Assembly (NCBI GenBank): GCA_017616955.1
Contig: JAFZXD010000153.1
Coordinates: 1-14,062 of the forward strand
Length of the DNA stretch: 14,062 nt
Source: Eubacterium sp.
GTDB taxonomy: Bacteria; Bacillota; Clostridia; Lachnospirales; Lachnospiraceae
Reading direction: 5' to 3'
Part shown: piece by piece, positions 6,304-14,062 of the stretch
Layout: every line of letters begins with the position of its first letter
How positions within the stretch are numbered: the stretch's first letter is position 1
Notes under the pieces: generated by a model
Databases searched by the model: none
The model's input: only the letters and a program-made list of their open reading frames with translations
What the model was told of the DNA's origin: nothing
Position numbers and translations under genes: made by a program

Positions 6304-7329
6304 ATGGCAGCTAATATACTAGTTACAACCACGAACGGATTTGAAGGCTATGTCGTGACTGATTATATGGGGATAGTTACCGGTCATTCGACACTCAGCT
6401 CAGAAGCTGAGAATCAGCTTGTTAAAGCGGCTAAACAGAAGGGTGCAAATGCAGTCATTGGGGTGAATATGACATATGCACCGTTGGAAGCAGGTTCATA
6501 TGATGTTATAGCATCGGGAACTGCTGTGAAGGTTTCAAGAAGTGTGAATATTTCTGATACGGTTCATAAAGAACTCTATGTCACGAATTATTATACAAGA
6601 CTTGTTCCAAGACCTGTAAAGGTCATTCTGGATGGTAATTCCAACATCATTAGTATGAAGATAGTTTGTTACAATTACAATCATGAAGATATTCAGTCCA
6701 TAAGAGCTGATGTTGAGTTTACCAATCTTTATGATGAAAGACTTGAGATTAAAAACGTCGATTTCGTCTTTTCAAATAATAACAATCTTTCGGTTATTGA
6801 ATCTGAATACGTTCTTACGGAGATTACACCAAACAAGCTGCAACTTCTTAAGGATGCAAAGATTGTTCTTAACAAGTATGCGACTTCCAGAGAGATATGT
6901 GCATGCAATGATGTACCGAAGAGTGTGACTCTCAATGCGGGAAGACTTGAAGCACTTAAAGAACAGTGCGGAATAGATGCTGTAGAGAAGTACAGCACGG
7001 ACGGAATGATCTGGACATGTAACTGCGGCCACATAAATGAAGCCGGAGATGAAGAATGTTCAGTCTGCGGACGTAAACAGAAAGACATTATGACAGACGT
7101 TGAGTTCAACTACGAAGAGATGGTTGACGAGATGCGTGAGAAGGACTCCGTTGTAGAAATCAAGGATGTCCTCATGGATTATATAAAAGATATTGATGCA
7201 AATGTTCGTTTGCAGCTTCTCGAGATTATGGAATCGGGACTTCAATACGAGAAGACTCGAGGCAATATGACAGAGACTGTTGTCGAGAAAGTTGCAAAAG
7301 CTTTTGAGGATGCATCGATACGAAGCTAA
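6304..7329 (+). CDS. YbjQ/UPF0145-domain protein with zinc ribbon
   Basis: A 341-residue soluble protein. Residues about 4-78 match the YbjQ/UPF0145 fold (annotated as putative heavy-metal binding and usually a stand-alone protein of about 105 residues). GYVVTDYMGIVTGHS, a helix ending in KGANAVIGV, and the closing strand VIASGTAVKV are visible. Residues about 95-200 look like a beta-rich domain I do not recognise. A zinc ribbon follows at 237-256: WTCNCG with Cys239/Cys241 and CSVCG with Cys252/Cys255. The last 75 residues are charged and helical. GGGAGG at 6289-6294 supports the ATG. It is the first gene of the operon, 17 bases before the TPR gene. The biochemical function of YbjQ proteins is not established, so only domain-level naming is justified. 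Confidence 0.8.
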   Translation: MAANILVTTTNGFEGYVVTDYMGIVTGHSTLSSEAENQLVKAAKQKGANAVIGVNMTYAPLEAGSYDVIASGTAVKVSRSVNISDTVHKELYVTNYYTRLVPRPVKVILDGNSNIISMKIVCYNYNHEDIQSIRADVEFTNLYDERLEIKNVDFVFSNNNNLSVIESEYVLTEITPNKLQLLKDAKIVLNKYATSREICACNDVPKSVTLNAGRLEALKEQCGIDAVEKYSTDGMIWTCNCGHINEAGDEECSVCGRKQKDIMTDVEFNYEEMVDEMREKDSVVEIKDVLMDYIKDIDANVRLQLLEIMESGLQYEKTRGNMTETVVEKVAKAFEDASIRS

Positions 7330-7346: not shown

Positions 7347-9701
7347 TTGAGTTCAGGACTTAGCATGACCAGCGTAAACAAAATAAAGCAACTTGCGGAG
7401 GCACATGAGTACGACCTGGCTGAGCCTATACTCGATTCTCAGGATCTTGAGAAGTCATTTAATCCTCAGTTCCTTAGAGTTTGCGGCGAAGTTTACGAGA
7501 ATGTTGGACGTCTTACAGAAGCCAGGCAGATGTACGTGAAGGCTCATAGCATGGCGCCCGAAGCTAACAGAATTATTTTTTCGCTTATAAACTATTATTT
7601 GAAACTCGGATATTTTGATCTTGCAGACAGATACTTTGAGGAGTATGTTTTTTACAGCTCAGGTGAAGAGCAGGATCTTAAGAATATAAGATATATCATG
7701 AAGAAGGGAAAAGGTGCTAATCCTGAAGATCTTTATGATATCCTATATCCATATTACAGAGATAATATAAATCCGGATTGGACATTTGAACTTATCCTTT
7801 TATCGAAGATTCTCGGTAAAGACGATATACAGATGCTTGTTACGGATTACAAGGCTACTTATAAAAACGGAAGATACGTTACGCTTGTCGATGAGATTGC
7901 AAATGACATCGAACTTGCGGTCAGAATGTATTATATATATGCTACAGCAGAGGCTCCGGATAATAAACCGGAAGAAGCTGAGATCAGAGAGATTGAAGAT
8001 AAACAGCTGAGAGAAGATTACTTTAAAATGAATCCAGAAGCTGTTGAAGAACAGGCGGTCATAACCGCACTTGTATCAGATGATCCGAAGGAGAAGATTT
8101 CAACCGATAATATCGAGAAGGGAATCAAGAATTTTATTAAACGTAAGTTTAAGAAAAAATCCGGAGATGATCAGGAAGATGAGAATGCTGAGACTGATGA
8201 GAATGCAGCGGCATCTGATTCGTCCGATTCCGACGATATCGAATTAACCGATGCAGAGGGTTCAACCGAAGCAGGAAGTGCGGATTCCGAATCTTCATCT
8301 GATCAGAATGATGACATTGAATTATCCGATGTGGATGGTAGCGAGTTTGTAGAAGGCGCTGCTCCTGATATGGGCAAGAAGTCCGGTAAACAGGAATTTG
8401 TTACTTATGAATTTGATGACGGATTTGCTCCGGAATCAGATACTATAGCCGGGCTTAGCGATATAGATTCTGAATTTGAAGAATCCTATGATAGTACCAA
8501 TGTATTCAGTGATTTTGAGAAGTTCCGCAGGACAGCAAACTATGATGTTCCTGTTCAGTCTGAAGAAGATGAGGAACCGGAGATATCATATTCTCCGGAG
8601 CCGGGATTTGAACCGGAGTTTGAAGATGAATTTGAGCCGGAACCGGATTTTGAAACAGATTCGGAACCTGAGGCTGAGCCTGAATTTGAATCAGAGCCGG
8701 AAGCTGAATCAGAATACGAATCCGAGTACGAGTCGGACTATGAAACTGAATCTCAATCTGATTATGAGATTCAATCCGTATCAGAGTCTGAACCGGAAAT
8801 AGATTATGAAGAAGAGACTTCGTATGAAGAGGAGACTTCATACGAGGAAGAAACTTCATATGAGGAAGAAACGTCGTATGAATCCGATAAATCATACGAT
8901 ACAGAAACTTCATATGAATCATATGAAGCAGAACCTTCATTTGAAGAAGAATCATATGAAGAAGAGCCTTCATATGAGGAAGAAACATCGTATGAGTCTG
9001 AGAGTTCATACGATACAGAGTCTTCTTATGAATCATACGATTCCGATACGTCGTATGAAACAGAAGAAACATACTCAGAGCCTGCAGAGGATGACTATTC
9101 ATCCGATGTAGAGGACGATGATGAACCTGAGCTTACTTATGAGACAGAGACATCATTTGAATCTGAGGAATCATACGAAACAGAGTCATCATATGAAACA
9201 GAAACATACGAAACAGAAACATACGAAACAGAAACATACGAAACAGAAACATATGAAACCGAGACATCATATGAATCTGAAACTTCATATGAATCCGAGA
9301 CATCATATGAGGCTGAGACATCTTATGATTCTGAATCCGATACAGAGACTTCTTATGAGACACAAACCTCCTACGAAACAGAAAATACATATGAACCGGA
9401 ACACTCATATGAAACTGTTTCAGAGGGTGAGAATGAAAATGAATCTGTAACCAAGGATGAATTAGAAACTGATTCCGAGACCAGACCATCTTATATGAAT
9501 TTTGATTTCCCTGAGATGGATCTGAAAAAATACAGTTCTGATTATTTCCCTGGTATGTCGCTTCAGGAAACTGAAACACATAACAGATTTGAGGATGTTA
9601 TGAAAACCGAGAGTGAGAAGCTTGACGAGGGACTAAAGGAAGAAGAGGCTAAGCTTCGTGAGGCAGAAGCACTTCTGGCTTCGCTCGGTATAAAATTATA
9701 A
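7347..9701 (+). CDS. TPR-like N-terminus with long acidic Tyr/Ser/Thr/Glu repeat region
   Basis: A 784-residue protein of unrecognised function. Residues about 1-245 are helical; at least one TPR-like pair is visible (NVGRLTEARQMYVKAHSMAP, then YYLKLGYFDLADRYFEEYV). A short basic patch (KRKFKKK, about 265-271) precedes a very acidic, disordered-looking stretch from about 272 to 710. That stretch is built from Glu, Ser, Thr, Tyr, Asp and Pro, and includes four EEETSY units (488-511) and four ETETY units (617-636). About 70 C-terminal residues are less repetitive (PSYMNFDFPEMDLKKYSSDYFPG) and end in a short coiled coil. There is no signal peptide or membrane segment, so it is cytoplasmic. The start is TTG at 7347, with TAAGGAG at 7331-7337; the next ATG is too far from that site. 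It may act as a scaffold or client-binding protein. Confidence 0.85.
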   Translation: MSSGLSMTSVNKIKQLAEAHEYDLAEPILDSQDLEKSFNPQFLRVCGEVYENVGRLTEARQMYVKAHSMAPEANRIIFSLINYYLKLGYFDLADRYFEEYVFYSSGEEQDLKNIRYIMKKGKGANPEDLYDILYPYYRDNINPDWTFELILLSKILGKDDIQMLVTDYKATYKNGRYVTLVDEIANDIELAVRMYYIYATAEAPDNKPEEAEIREIEDKQLREDYFKMNPEAVEEQAVITALVSDDPKEKISTDNIEKGIKNFIKRKFKKKSGDDQEDENAETDENAAASDSSDSDDIELTDAEGSTEAGSADSESSSDQNDDIELSDVDGSEFVEGAAPDMGKKSGKQEFVTYEFDDGFAPESDTIAGLSDIDSEFEESYDSTNVFSDFEKFRRTANYDVPVQSEEDEEPEISYSPEPGFEPEFEDEFEPEPDFETDSEPEAEPEFESEPEAESEYESEYESDYETESQSDYEIQSVSESEPEIDYEEETSYEEETSYEEETSYEEETSYESDKSYDTETSYESYEAEPSFEEESYEEEPSYEEETSYESESSYDTESSYESYDSDTSYETEETYSEPAEDDYSSDVEDDDEPELTYETETSFESEESYETESSYETETYETETYETETYETETYETETSYESETSYESETSYEAETSYDSESDTETSYETQTSYETENTYEPEHSYETVSEGENENESVTKDELETDSETRPSYMNFDFPEMDLKKYSSDYFPGMSLQETETHNRFEDVMKTESEKLDEGLKEEEAKLREAEALLASLGIKL
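8808..8879 (+). repeat. Four 18-bp units encoding EEETSY
   Basis: Four back-to-back units (8808-8825, 8826-8843, 8844-8861, 8862-8879) give the same hexapeptide, but differ from one another only at synonymous third positions (GAA/GAG, ACT/ACG, TCA/TCG, TAT/TAC). Variants of the TSYE motif recur over most of 8800-9420. Confidence 0.9.
9195..9254 (+). repeat. Four 15-bp tandem units encoding ETETY
   Basis: GAAACAGAAACATAC occurs three times exactly (9195-9209, 9210-9224, 9225-9239) and once with a single final C-to-T change (9240-9254). The in-frame unit length means copy-number change would not shift the frame. Confidence 0.95.
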
Positions 9702-9776
9702 ATAGTTAAGCTGATGAGCTCAGGGGCTCAGATGCTTATATCCAACTATGAAAAATGTGAAGGAGGTAGTAGCACA

Positions 9777-10859
9777 GTGGCTGTTGATCAAAGAGAAGCG
9801 CTAATTGCTGCTGTACGTGCACAGGTCGAGAAGGAACGTGCCGAAAAGCAAAAAAAACTTGAAAGGGAACGCGAGGCTATGGCATTTTCCAAGGCGGGAA
9901 ATGACAAAAAAGCCGATTCAGAGAAGAAAACATATAAGACTCTGACGCCTGAAGAACTTGCAAGAATCGAAGAAAAAAAGAGACGCAAAAGGGCAGAGGA
10001 GCTGGGTATAGATTTAGATACTCTTGAAGGTGCATCTGCGGATAGCAGTGCTGAAGGAGCAACTCCCGATGATTCGGAAACACAAGTTCTTACTTCTGAA
10101 ATGAGTTCAGAAGGTGCCGGTGGACTTGGTGGAATTCCGGCTTCAGAAGGAGGTCTTGGTGATTTCCTGAGTTCAGGTGGTGGGCTCGGAGCGATGCCCG
10201 GTTCAGAAGGAGGTCTTGGTGCCAATATTGATGGTACTAAGGATACTTTAGGTCTCTTCGGAGGCGAAAATGGTTGGGATTCAGCAGACTCTAAGTCTGA
10301 TGATCTTGACAGTATCGTGCCTACCAAGGGAGATGACTCTGACAGTATGTATGATGTTGATGATGAAGATTCATCATTTGCTGCTCAGGCTTCTTCTATG
10401 GATGGATTCAAGGATGTTTCATCTGAAGGTCAGGATGGCGATGAGATCGAACTTGATTCAAGCGGACCTACATATGAGGATCAGTTTGAGGAGCGTAAGG
10501 CTCGCAAGAAGAAGATGTCCAGCGGCATAGACGATCAGGAAAGAAGACTCGCTGCTGCAAGAGAAAAAGCTGCTAAGAAGAAGCAGGAAAAGGGCGGAGT
10601 TGAAGAAAAAGTTTCAGTTACTGTCACTGATGATACTGCTAAGGCAGAAGCTGATGCTAAGAAGAAAGAAGAAATCGCTGCTAAGAAGGCAGAAGAAGCT
10701 GCACAGAAGGCTGCTGAGGAAGCTGAGAAGAGACGTGCTCTTGAAGAGCAGCGTAAGAAAGCTGCCGAAGAAGCTCGTAAGGCTGCCGCCGCTGAACAGC
10801 GTAAGAAGTATAAAGAAGAAGCTGAACATGCTCTTGCTGAAGCTAAGAAAGCTGTTTAA
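9777..10859 (+). pseudogene. Coiled-coil / AAA-like protein, N-terminal part, cut by in-frame TAA
   Basis: This is the first third of a gene that would span 9777-13094 in one frame. The GTG at 9777 is preferred because AAGGAGG lies at 9760-9766, ten bases upstream; an in-frame ATG at 9714 has no such site. It encodes 360 residues. First comes a charged helix (EKERAEKQKKLEREREAM), then a segment whose TLTPEELARIEEKKRRKRAEELG looks helical. A disordered Gly/Ser/Asp-rich region follows with SEGGLG repeats, then an Ala/Lys/Glu coiled coil starting near 10480. The TAA at 10857-10859 interrupts AEAKKAV, and EAKKQVVEAEKN continues in the same frame. If the stop is real the product is a truncated coiled coil without the C-terminal domain. 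The function is unknown. Confidence 0.75.
10142..10221 (+). repeat. 20-bp direct repeat in the Gly-rich linker
   Basis: The same 20 bases, starting TTCAGAAGGAGG, occur at 10142-10161 and 10202-10221, exactly 60 bases apart and in the same reading frame. Both encode SEGGLG. This suggests duplication of a 20-residue unit; the sequence between has diverged. Confidence 0.85.
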
Positions 10860-10895
10860 GAAGCAAAGAAGCAGGTTGTTGAAGCTGAGAAGAAT

Positions 10896-13094
10896 GTGGT
10901 TCCGGAAACTACAAGTGGTGAGGCTCCGAGAACTGCTGAAGAAGAAAAACTTGAAGCTGATATGGATGCAGCTATCAAGGATAAGGAAGAGTTTGAGAAG
11001 ACTGTTAACGCTGCAAAGGATGCTGTTAAGGAAGCTGAGGACGGCGTAACAAAGGCTAAGGACGAAGTTAAGGCCAAGGAAGATGCTCTTGCTCTTGCCA
11101 AGACTAAGATAAAAGCACTTGAAGAGAAGACTGCAAACGACAAGACTGCTGCTGCTGAGAAAGCAAATGCAGGACTTGATGCTATCAGAAATAAGATTCT
11201 TTCAGAAGCAAAGGCTGCTGCAGAACTCGTAAGTAAGACTAAGGGAGACGAAGCTGCTAAGAAGAGAGCTGCTGAGAATAGCAAGGCTGAAGAGGAAGAA
11301 ATCGAGAAGTTTGCAGCTGAAGAAGAGAAACTTAAAGCAGAGATTCAGGCAGCTCAGGCTAAAGTTGCTGAGGCTGAGGCTGAAGTTACAAAGGCTGAAG
11401 AAGGCGTTACTGTTGCAGAACTTTCTGTAGCATCTGCTTTGGATGATGTTTCTACTGCTGAAGATAATGTAAAGACTGCTGAAGGAAGAGTTGTTCTTGC
11501 TGAGGTTGAAGTTGAGAAGGCTAAAGAAGCTGCGAGTTCTGTTCAGGCAGAATATGATTCAGCTATGTCAGCTGTTGAGGCTGCAGAGAAGGCACTTGCT
11601 GATGCAAAAGCTAATGCAAATGCTGTTAAGGCTAAGGTTGATGCAGCAAATGGCAATATAGCAACTGCTCAGAAGGGTGTAACTGATGCTCAGTCAGCTG
11701 TTGAAGCTGCTAAGGCTGAAGTTGCTAATAAGACAGCTGCTATAGAGGCTGCAAAGACAGCTGTTACAGCTGCTCAGGATAAGGTTGCTACAGCAAAGGC
11801 TGATGTTGAATCTAAGAAGACAAATGTTGAGGCTGTACAGGCTAAGTCAGCTGATATAGATCAGAGAAGAGAAGAAGCTGCAAAAGCCAGACAGACAGCA
11901 TTTGCTGAGGCAGAGAAGAAGGCTGCTGATGAGATCGCAGCAAATATCGCTAAGGCTATAAAGGCTGCTGAGATTGAGTCTAAGTCAAAGGCTGAAGCTC
12001 AGGTTAAGGCTGAAATAGATTCTGAGAACAAGAGAATAGATGAAGAATTCAAGAAGAGCAAAGCTGAGATTGAGAGTGAAGTAAAGGCCAAGGATGCAGA
12101 GGTTTCAGCTGCTAAGAAAGCTGTTAAGACAGCTGAGGATGCAGTTAGAACTGCTAAGACTAAGGTTACAAAGACAGAGATCACTCTTGGTGAAAAGGCT
12201 AAAGTTATCGGCGACATCCTTAATAAGATGGAAGCTGCCAGAAAGAAAGCCGAAGAAGATTACTCAAAGCGTGGTTCTTCTGCTAAGGTAGATGAAGCTA
12301 AGGCTAAGCTTAAGGAACTCGAAGCTGCTGTTAAGGCTGCTGAGAAGAAGGTTGCTGACGTTGATAAGATGGATATCGATCTTACCAAGACAGCTCCGGG
12401 AATGAGACTTCCTCTTGCTGCTAACTATCTTGAGAAATATCTTGAGATCAAGGCTTCAGCTGATGAAATCGTAGATACATTTAACGATATCGCAGAGAAT
12501 ATGGAACAGACTATCAGATCAAGAAATATCGTTATTCTTGGTCAGTATGGATTCGGTTCTGTCTGCGTTGGTGAAGACTTTGCTCGAAGCTTCTATGATA
12601 TGGGTGTATGTAGTTCAAGAACTATAGCTAAGATTAAAGCTAAGGCACTTAGCAAAGTTGGTTTTGAAGCCCTTGATAAGTTAAAGGGTGGATGTCTCGT
12701 TATCGAGAATGCCGGACTTGTATCACCACAGAAACTTATTGAGATTGTTCAGCTTTCAGCTAAGGATCAGAAGGACTTCGTAGTTATCCTTACAGGTGAG
12801 ATTGATTCAATCTCTAACCTCTTCGGAAATACTGCTGAGATTCTTTCAGAGTTCGAGTACCTGATCGATATGACCAAGATCGATAAGGCTGATATGACTA
12901 AGTTTGGTATGGCATATATCAGTCAGAGAGGTTACTCTGCTTCAGATGAAACTGAGAAGACTATCACAAGTATTCTTGATGGTATGGAAACTGGTAACCT
13001 TGATCGTCTTGAAGAAGCTATCGATAATGCTATCGAGAAAGCTCATAAGAGAGACGCGGAAGCTATGAGAGTTATTCCACAGGACTTTGAATAA
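10896..13094 (+). pseudogene. Coiled-coil / AAA-like protein, C-terminal part after the TAA
   Basis: This continues in frame from the part ending at 10859; the 36 bases between are also open. The first possible start here is a GTG at 10896, with no good ribosome binding site; an ATG at 10962 is no better. Residues about 1-495 of this part are an almost unbroken Ala/Lys/Glu/Val coiled coil (AEAEVTKAEE-type heptads) with few leucines. The last 240 or so residues are globular and resemble an AAA+ domain of the CbxX/CfxQ (SpoVK-like) type. The Walker A-like loop at 12540-12563 reads GQYGFGSV, lacking the Lys-Thr/Ser. The Walker B-like strand at 12696-12710 reads LVIEN rather than an Asp-Glu ending. 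A sensor-1-like FVVILTG and an F.NTAEILSEFEYLIDM segment follow. ATP hydrolysis is therefore unlikely. The operon terminator lies 66 bases downstream. Confidence 0.75.
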
Positions 13095-13229: not shown

Positions 13230-14062
13230 ATGTACCGTATTGATATAGGCATAGATCTCGGAACTTCAAATATATGTGTGTACATGAGAGATAAGGGAAT
13301 AGTTATCAATCAGCCTGCTGTTCTCGCATACGAGAGGAAAGAGAAGAGAATTCTTGCAGTAGGAACCAAAGCAAAACGTATGTTGGGTAAAACTACAGAT
13401 GATATAATAGTAGAACGTCCCATAAAGCACGGAGTTATCTCGGAATATGCGATAGCTGAAAGAATGATAAAGGCATTTGTTAAGAATGCTATGCGTAAGC
13501 GTCGTATCTGGGGCAGACCAAATGTATGTGTTGCTGTTCCTCAGGGAATCACTGAAGTTGAAAGAAGAGCAGTTGAAGATGCTATAGTAAAAACAGGAGC
13601 TAAGGAAGTATTCCTGCTTGAATCTCCGATTGCTGCTGCACTCGGTTGTGGTGTCGACATCATGGAAACTTCAGGACATATGGTAGTTGATATCGGTGGT
13701 GGTACAACAGATATAGCTGTTATATCTTCGGGAGATATATCATATGGAGTATCTCTTAAGATAGGTGGAGATGATTTCACAGAAGCTATTGCCAGATATG
13801 TAAGAAGAAAATACAGTATAGAACTCGGCGAACTTACTGCTGAGGATGCTAAGATAGAGATTGCGGGAGTTTATCCTCGTAAGATAGATTCTTCGTATGA
13901 AATAAAAGGTAAGAACATGGTTAACGGTCTTCCGGTAAGGCTTGATCTCGGAGCTAATGAGACAGTTGAAGCTCTTGAAGAGATAGCCGGACAGATTGTC
14001 GATGGTATAACAGGAGTCCTCGAGAAGGTTCAGCCTGAACTTGTGGCTGATATCTCCAAAGA
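13230..14062 (+). CDS. MreB/Mbl-family actin-like protein (partial, 3' end outside window)
   Basis: The first 277 residues of a bacterial actin homologue that polymerises along the membrane and guides cell-wall synthesis in rods; full-length relatives have about 330-345 residues. The phosphate-1 loop GIDLGTSNICVY is at residues 7-18. The family stretch RPIKHGVI is near residues 68-75 and PQGITEVERRAVEDA near 101-115. The phosphate-2 loop DIGGGTTDIAVIS is at 154-166, followed by TAEDAKIEIAGVYP. Small departures from typical MreB (GTSNI for GTANT, LLESPIAAALG for IEEPMAAAIG, GGTTD for GGTTE) suggest a divergent paralogue, so I leave the symbol open between mreB and mbl. The ATG at 13230 has AGGAGG at 13220-13225, a rather short four-base spacing. 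No downstream partner such as mreC can be seen. Confidence 0.93.
   Translation, partial: MYRIDIGIDLGTSNICVYMRDKGIVINQPAVLAYERKEKRILAVGTKAKRMLGKTTDDIIVERPIKHGVISEYAIAERMIKAFVKNAMRKRRIWGRPNVCVAVPQGITEVERRAVEDAIVKTGAKEVFLLESPIAAALGCGVDIMETSGHMVVDIGGGTTDIAVISSGDISYGVSLKIGGDDFTEAIARYVRRKYSIELGELTAEDAKIEIAGVYPRKIDSSYEIKGKNMVNGLPVRLDLGANETVEALEEIAGQIVDGITGVLEKVQPELVADISK

Follow-up and report, generated by a model that had tools for sequence, protein, structure and literature searches.

The stretch analysed here (the window) is 14,062 nucleotides long and constitutes one entire contig of a Eubacterium sp. draft assembly, G000. Between a gene for a TPR protein and mreB (13230..14060, forward strand, truncated by the contig end) lies a long gene on the same strand, which we place at 9777..13094, from a GTG start to a terminal TAA (13092-13094), on the combined evidence of its start codon, the Shine-Dalgarno-like (SD-like) match before it, the reading frame and the relatives. 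The gene has one interruption, an in-frame TAA at 10857..10859 on the forward strand, seen in this assembly alone. An earlier sequence-only reading had proposed that a single TAA splits an otherwise continuous frame, and this is what we find: from 9714 to 13091 the frame carries no other stop. The same reading had put both ORFs in one frame, with 36 bases between the stop and the next possible start, and both statements hold, the start coordinates of the two ORFs being divisible by 3 and the intervening bases being 10860-10895. As listed, ORF A runs from 9714 to 10859 (381 aa) and ORF B from GTG 10896 to 13094 (732 aa from that codon); the whole open stretch past the stop amounts to 744 codons.

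The upstream part (9777..10859, forward strand; 360 codons plus the stop) encodes a conserved N-terminal segment, a Gly/Ser/Asp-rich linker and the start of a coiled coil, while the downstream part (10860..13094, forward strand; 744 codons plus the stop) encodes the remaining coiled coil and a C-terminal domain, the linker and the coiled coil having been assigned by eye from the sequence. An intact product would run to about 1100 residues and would join the N-terminal segment, through the long coiled coil, to an AAA+-like domain without the lysine that binds nucleotide. With the internal stop counted in both figures, 417 of the 1105 codons of the gene are one base away from a stop codon, and the gene is therefore a large target for nonsense change. 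Chance is not at issue for a single stop in so long a frame; the relatives show that one gene has been interrupted.

The gene's own start is most likely GTG 9777, which is preceded by the SD-like sequence AAGGAGGT (9760..9767, forward strand), 9 bases 5' of the codon; with the start placed there, 360 codons precede the stop. The upstream alternative, ATG 9714, was rejected because, unlike GTG 9777, it has no SD-like match upstream. In four relatives (L003, L004, L005 and L037) the codon matching the valine of GTG 9777 is the earliest possible start in frame. SD-like matches also precede six of the seven other window genes checked, the exception being thyA, which starts at GTG 4795. The same search before the two candidate restart codons, GTG 10896 (10896..10898, forward strand, the first possible one) and ATG 10962, found no match at either. 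L032, the nearest relative, has no start codon at the position of GTG 10896 and keeps ATG 10962 as an internal codon.

That nearest relative is Eubacterium sp. isolate RGIG7096, a metagenome assembly from water buffalo abomasum, whose locus L032 was equated with contig G068:C89, on the grounds of an equal length (91,726) and match position, and was counted once. It is 88% identical to the upstream part and 92% identical to the downstream part, and it spans the matching stretch with a single ORF of 1134 aa; a scan for gaps of at least 8 residues found a 14-residue length difference between the two drafts (G000 and G068) in this gene, before the stop. Across the genus, 61 genomes including the source draft were searched, 57 of which have a match to ORF B in the form of a long or a short homologue. 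The comparison at the stop site drew on 26 loci with long homologues, 25 of which cover the site; in the remaining one (L036) the frame starts at the locus edge and only the downstream part is covered. Outside this comparison stand, among others, L009 (a frame of 513 aa), the long frames of G022 (1052 aa), G023 (1173 aa), G065 (947 aa) and G078 (954 aa), a second frame of G003 (947 aa) and several weak matches; the listing of matches from the genus search shows no internal stop, including in those outside the site comparison. A look at the homologous locus in relatives had been suggested from the outset, and it returned an uninterrupted single ORF in every one of the 25 homologues that cover the site. 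The residue aligned with the stop is E in 14 of them, K in 5, A in 4, D in 1 and V in 1, the column being approximate in distant relatives, where the coiled coil is variable at this point. The prediction that the site had held a Glu codon is thus borne out in the nearest relative and in these 14. The stop is private to the source draft, where private means present in one assembly, the only genome of its species in the comparison. A protein database search, in which only the 7999 candidates with the most shared words were scored per query, was also inspected for near-identical copies from the same species, whether split or intact, and there were none among the 21 matches to ORF A and the 27 matches to ORF B. 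The top match to ORF A shares 52% identity across 57% of that ORF (the highest identity, 78%, extends over 21%), and the top match to ORF B is 40% identical over 80%.

Both parts of the gene have been under the same constraint. Nei-Gojobori counts against L032, with the upstream part taken from 9732, give dN 0.045 and dS 0.425 before the stop, dN 0.043 and dS 0.438 after it, and dN 0.011 and dS 0.330 over the last 245 codons. Past the stop we found neither relaxed constraint nor further breaks: the downstream frame is open and its dN and dS are close to the upstream values. Equal constraint on both parts is consistent with a break that is very recent or with a spurious base, and is no proof of present-day translation of the downstream part.

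The quality of the assembly bears on the second of these possibilities. The source draft comprises 1,707,110 bases in 305 contigs and is 58.6% complete. We compared 80 of the 305 contigs with 40 stretches of G068, with matches confined to 15 of the 80; 13 stretches of G000 and 7 of G068 are given as N and yielded nothing. At 80% identity or more, 72 G068 ORFs (25,867 aligned residues) were matched in G000, and exactly one contains a mid-gene stop, the coiled-coil gene itself. Six other stops, in three ORFs, lie at the ends of the reference sequence, among its first 27 residues or its final 3, and those among the first 27 can be explained by the choice of start. In the reverse direction (67 ORFs, 24,969 residues) there are four G068 stops, at residues 61/341, 10/158, 16/492 and 22/747, the one at 61/341 being accompanied by a nearby frame change. 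A second pass, for gaps of at least 8 residues and for frame changes, found in G000 the 14-residue length difference described above, a deletion of 26 residues in the YbjQ-like gene of the window and, in one further ORF, a deletion of 10 residues and an insertion of 17; its reverse recovered the first two of these differences and showed the TPR gene to differ in length by 22 residues. Two ORFs (L148 with L079, and L052 with L096) also show frame changes in the reverse comparison of the drafts, one of 164 aa close to its end and one of 341 aa, which starts at a contig edge, close to its beginning. The scarcity of mid-gene stops (1 in 72 ORFs) argues against a generally faulty assembly, and we did not retain that explanation; as a rate, a single mid-gene stop says little.

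The window carries a second private difference, in the YbjQ-domain gene at 6304-7326, where about 25-27 codons present in the nearest relative are missing between 6401 and 6402. This gene has a near full-length, one-piece match in 51 other genomes of the genus, and only the G000 copy is split there. A YbjQ-like gene of another genus member (G084:C73:10973-12058) has one in-frame TAA, a single stop comparable to the one described here.

We consider it very probable that the locus holds one gene cut by a single stop, through a recent nonsense mutation or a sequence error, and that neither two genes nor recoding is involved. The sequence-only reading had listed a recent nonsense mutation, a base-call error and two real polypeptides side by side; the open frame in all 25 relatives that cover the site favours the first two and leaves the third disfavoured. 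In that third account the N-terminal protein ends at the stop and ribosomes restart downstream, and the two products may co-assemble through the coiled coil. The downstream frame is indeed open for 744 codons, ATG 10962 is kept in L032, albeit as an internal codon, and the C-terminal part seems able to exist apart, given that short relatives (339-465 aa) occur in 50 of the 60 other genomes of the genus. Against this, neither GTG 10896 nor ATG 10962 has the SD-like match that six of the seven other window genes possess, GTG 10896 is absent from L032, and none of the site-covering relatives shares the stop. A conserved stop combined with a ribosome binding site for a second gene had been named as the pattern that would speak for two genes, and neither element of it was found. 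We therefore set the two-gene account aside on the missing SD-like match and the unconserved start, and judge it very unlikely. A related proposal, that the stop has become fixed in this lineage as a recent natural split, with both parts now separate proteins and the C-terminal AAA+-like part working alone as the short relatives may do, is in our view slightly more doubtful still.

Recoding, or programmed read-through of the TAA to yield the full protein, has as its sole point in favour that the downstream frame is open and constrained relative to L032. That recoding is unlikely had been argued on the ground that TAA terminates neighbouring genes; it ends five of the eight other window ORFs checked (six of nine with the interrupted one), the other 71 ORFs compared between the drafts have no mid-gene stop, and no stop stands at the site in the 25 relatives. 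We know of no read-through signal for the context of TAA 10857. With TAA ending other window genes and the stop lacking in the relatives, recoding was rejected, and its probability is close to negligible.

Within the preferred reading of one gene and one stop, the stop seems about as likely to be a genuine recent allele as an error in the sequence. If the base is real, translation would stop after 360 residues, the C-terminal domain and the greater part of the coiled coil would be missing, and the allele would probably represent a recent loss of function; a long-lasting loss would be hard to reconcile with the conservation of the gene, which argues against it. If instead the fragmented draft has a wrong consensus base here, the organism would make the full protein.

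The C-terminal domain (12333..13091, forward strand) is weakly similar to the CbbX/SpoVK group of AAA+ proteins. A Pfam search of the gene returned only matches below the Pfam cut-offs, and the last 253 residues give weak matches to the SpoVK/CbbX models TIGR02881 (E 2e-06) and TIGR02880 (E 1.1e-05), in the same list as NF047793 (E 4.7e-05), which we take to be an unrelated model. Taken alone, the domain scores 27.1 bits against a curated cut-off of 422.95 for TIGR02881, and 24.9 against 459.25 for TIGR02880. A 42-row alignment of the domain, compared by HMMER with solved CbbX chains, matches 3zuh (E 1.4e-05) and 3syk (E 1.7e-05). The Walker A (P-loop) lysine is missing in all 42 aligned members: alignment position 76 is S in 27, T in 14 and Q in 1, the column having been assigned by eye and lying outside the HMMER match to the solved chains. 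The residue after the Walker B acidic position is N in 39 members and S in 3. Because the P-loop lysine is missing and the Walker B acidic residue is followed by N or S, ATP hydrolysis by the C-terminal domain is unlikely, as far as can be inferred from sequence.

On the same strand and within about 370 bases downstream, mreB follows in 26 of the 27 long-form loci, the exception being L020, a locus that ends near the domain. The TPR gene upstream is common to L032 and, through its C-terminal end, to 7 further loci. In the window this TPR-like gene (7347-9701) contains a long Glu/Ser/Tyr/Thr-rich repeat run (ETSYE-like); its product is 784 aa long, against 743 aa in the nearest relative, and its dN against L032 (0.163) is the highest among the 7 gene pairs measured. 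A second, short form of the degenerate AAA+-like domain protein was looked at in 14 loci (L014, L018, L019 and L021-L031), in none of which mreB lies beside it, most loci, in both counts, reaching only about 1.5 kb past the match; G000's own short-form locus (L002), which is cut by the contig end, stands outside both mreB counts. The position beside mreB suggests a structural or cytoskeletal role, possibly that of a scaffold tied to cell shape. Our literature search found no paper that joins at least three of the terms CbbX, coiled-coil, MreB and Lachnospiraceae.

The stop is in itself ordinary, another instance of a gene either broken or misread in a draft assembly, and in the annotation of the contig the two ORFs are best treated as one gene. 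Of more interest is the unbroken family to which the gene belongs, whose members combine a long coiled coil with a degenerate AAA+-like domain and are encoded beside mreB across much of the genus. As to the stop, Cooley and Wright (PMC11017572) report that spurious internal stops arise in low-coverage assemblies. Like the nonsense alleles and spurious stops of draft bacterial assemblies, the present case consists of one in-frame stop in an otherwise intact gene whose relatives are open; it differs in being known from one assembly and in being assignable to either kind. As to the protein, it resembles the CbbX/SpoVK AAA+ proteins in profile over about 100-113 residues of its C-terminal domain, but it scores far under the curated cut-offs, and the domain stands apart from theirs in lacking the Walker A lysine, in lying behind a long coiled coil and in being encoded beside mreB.
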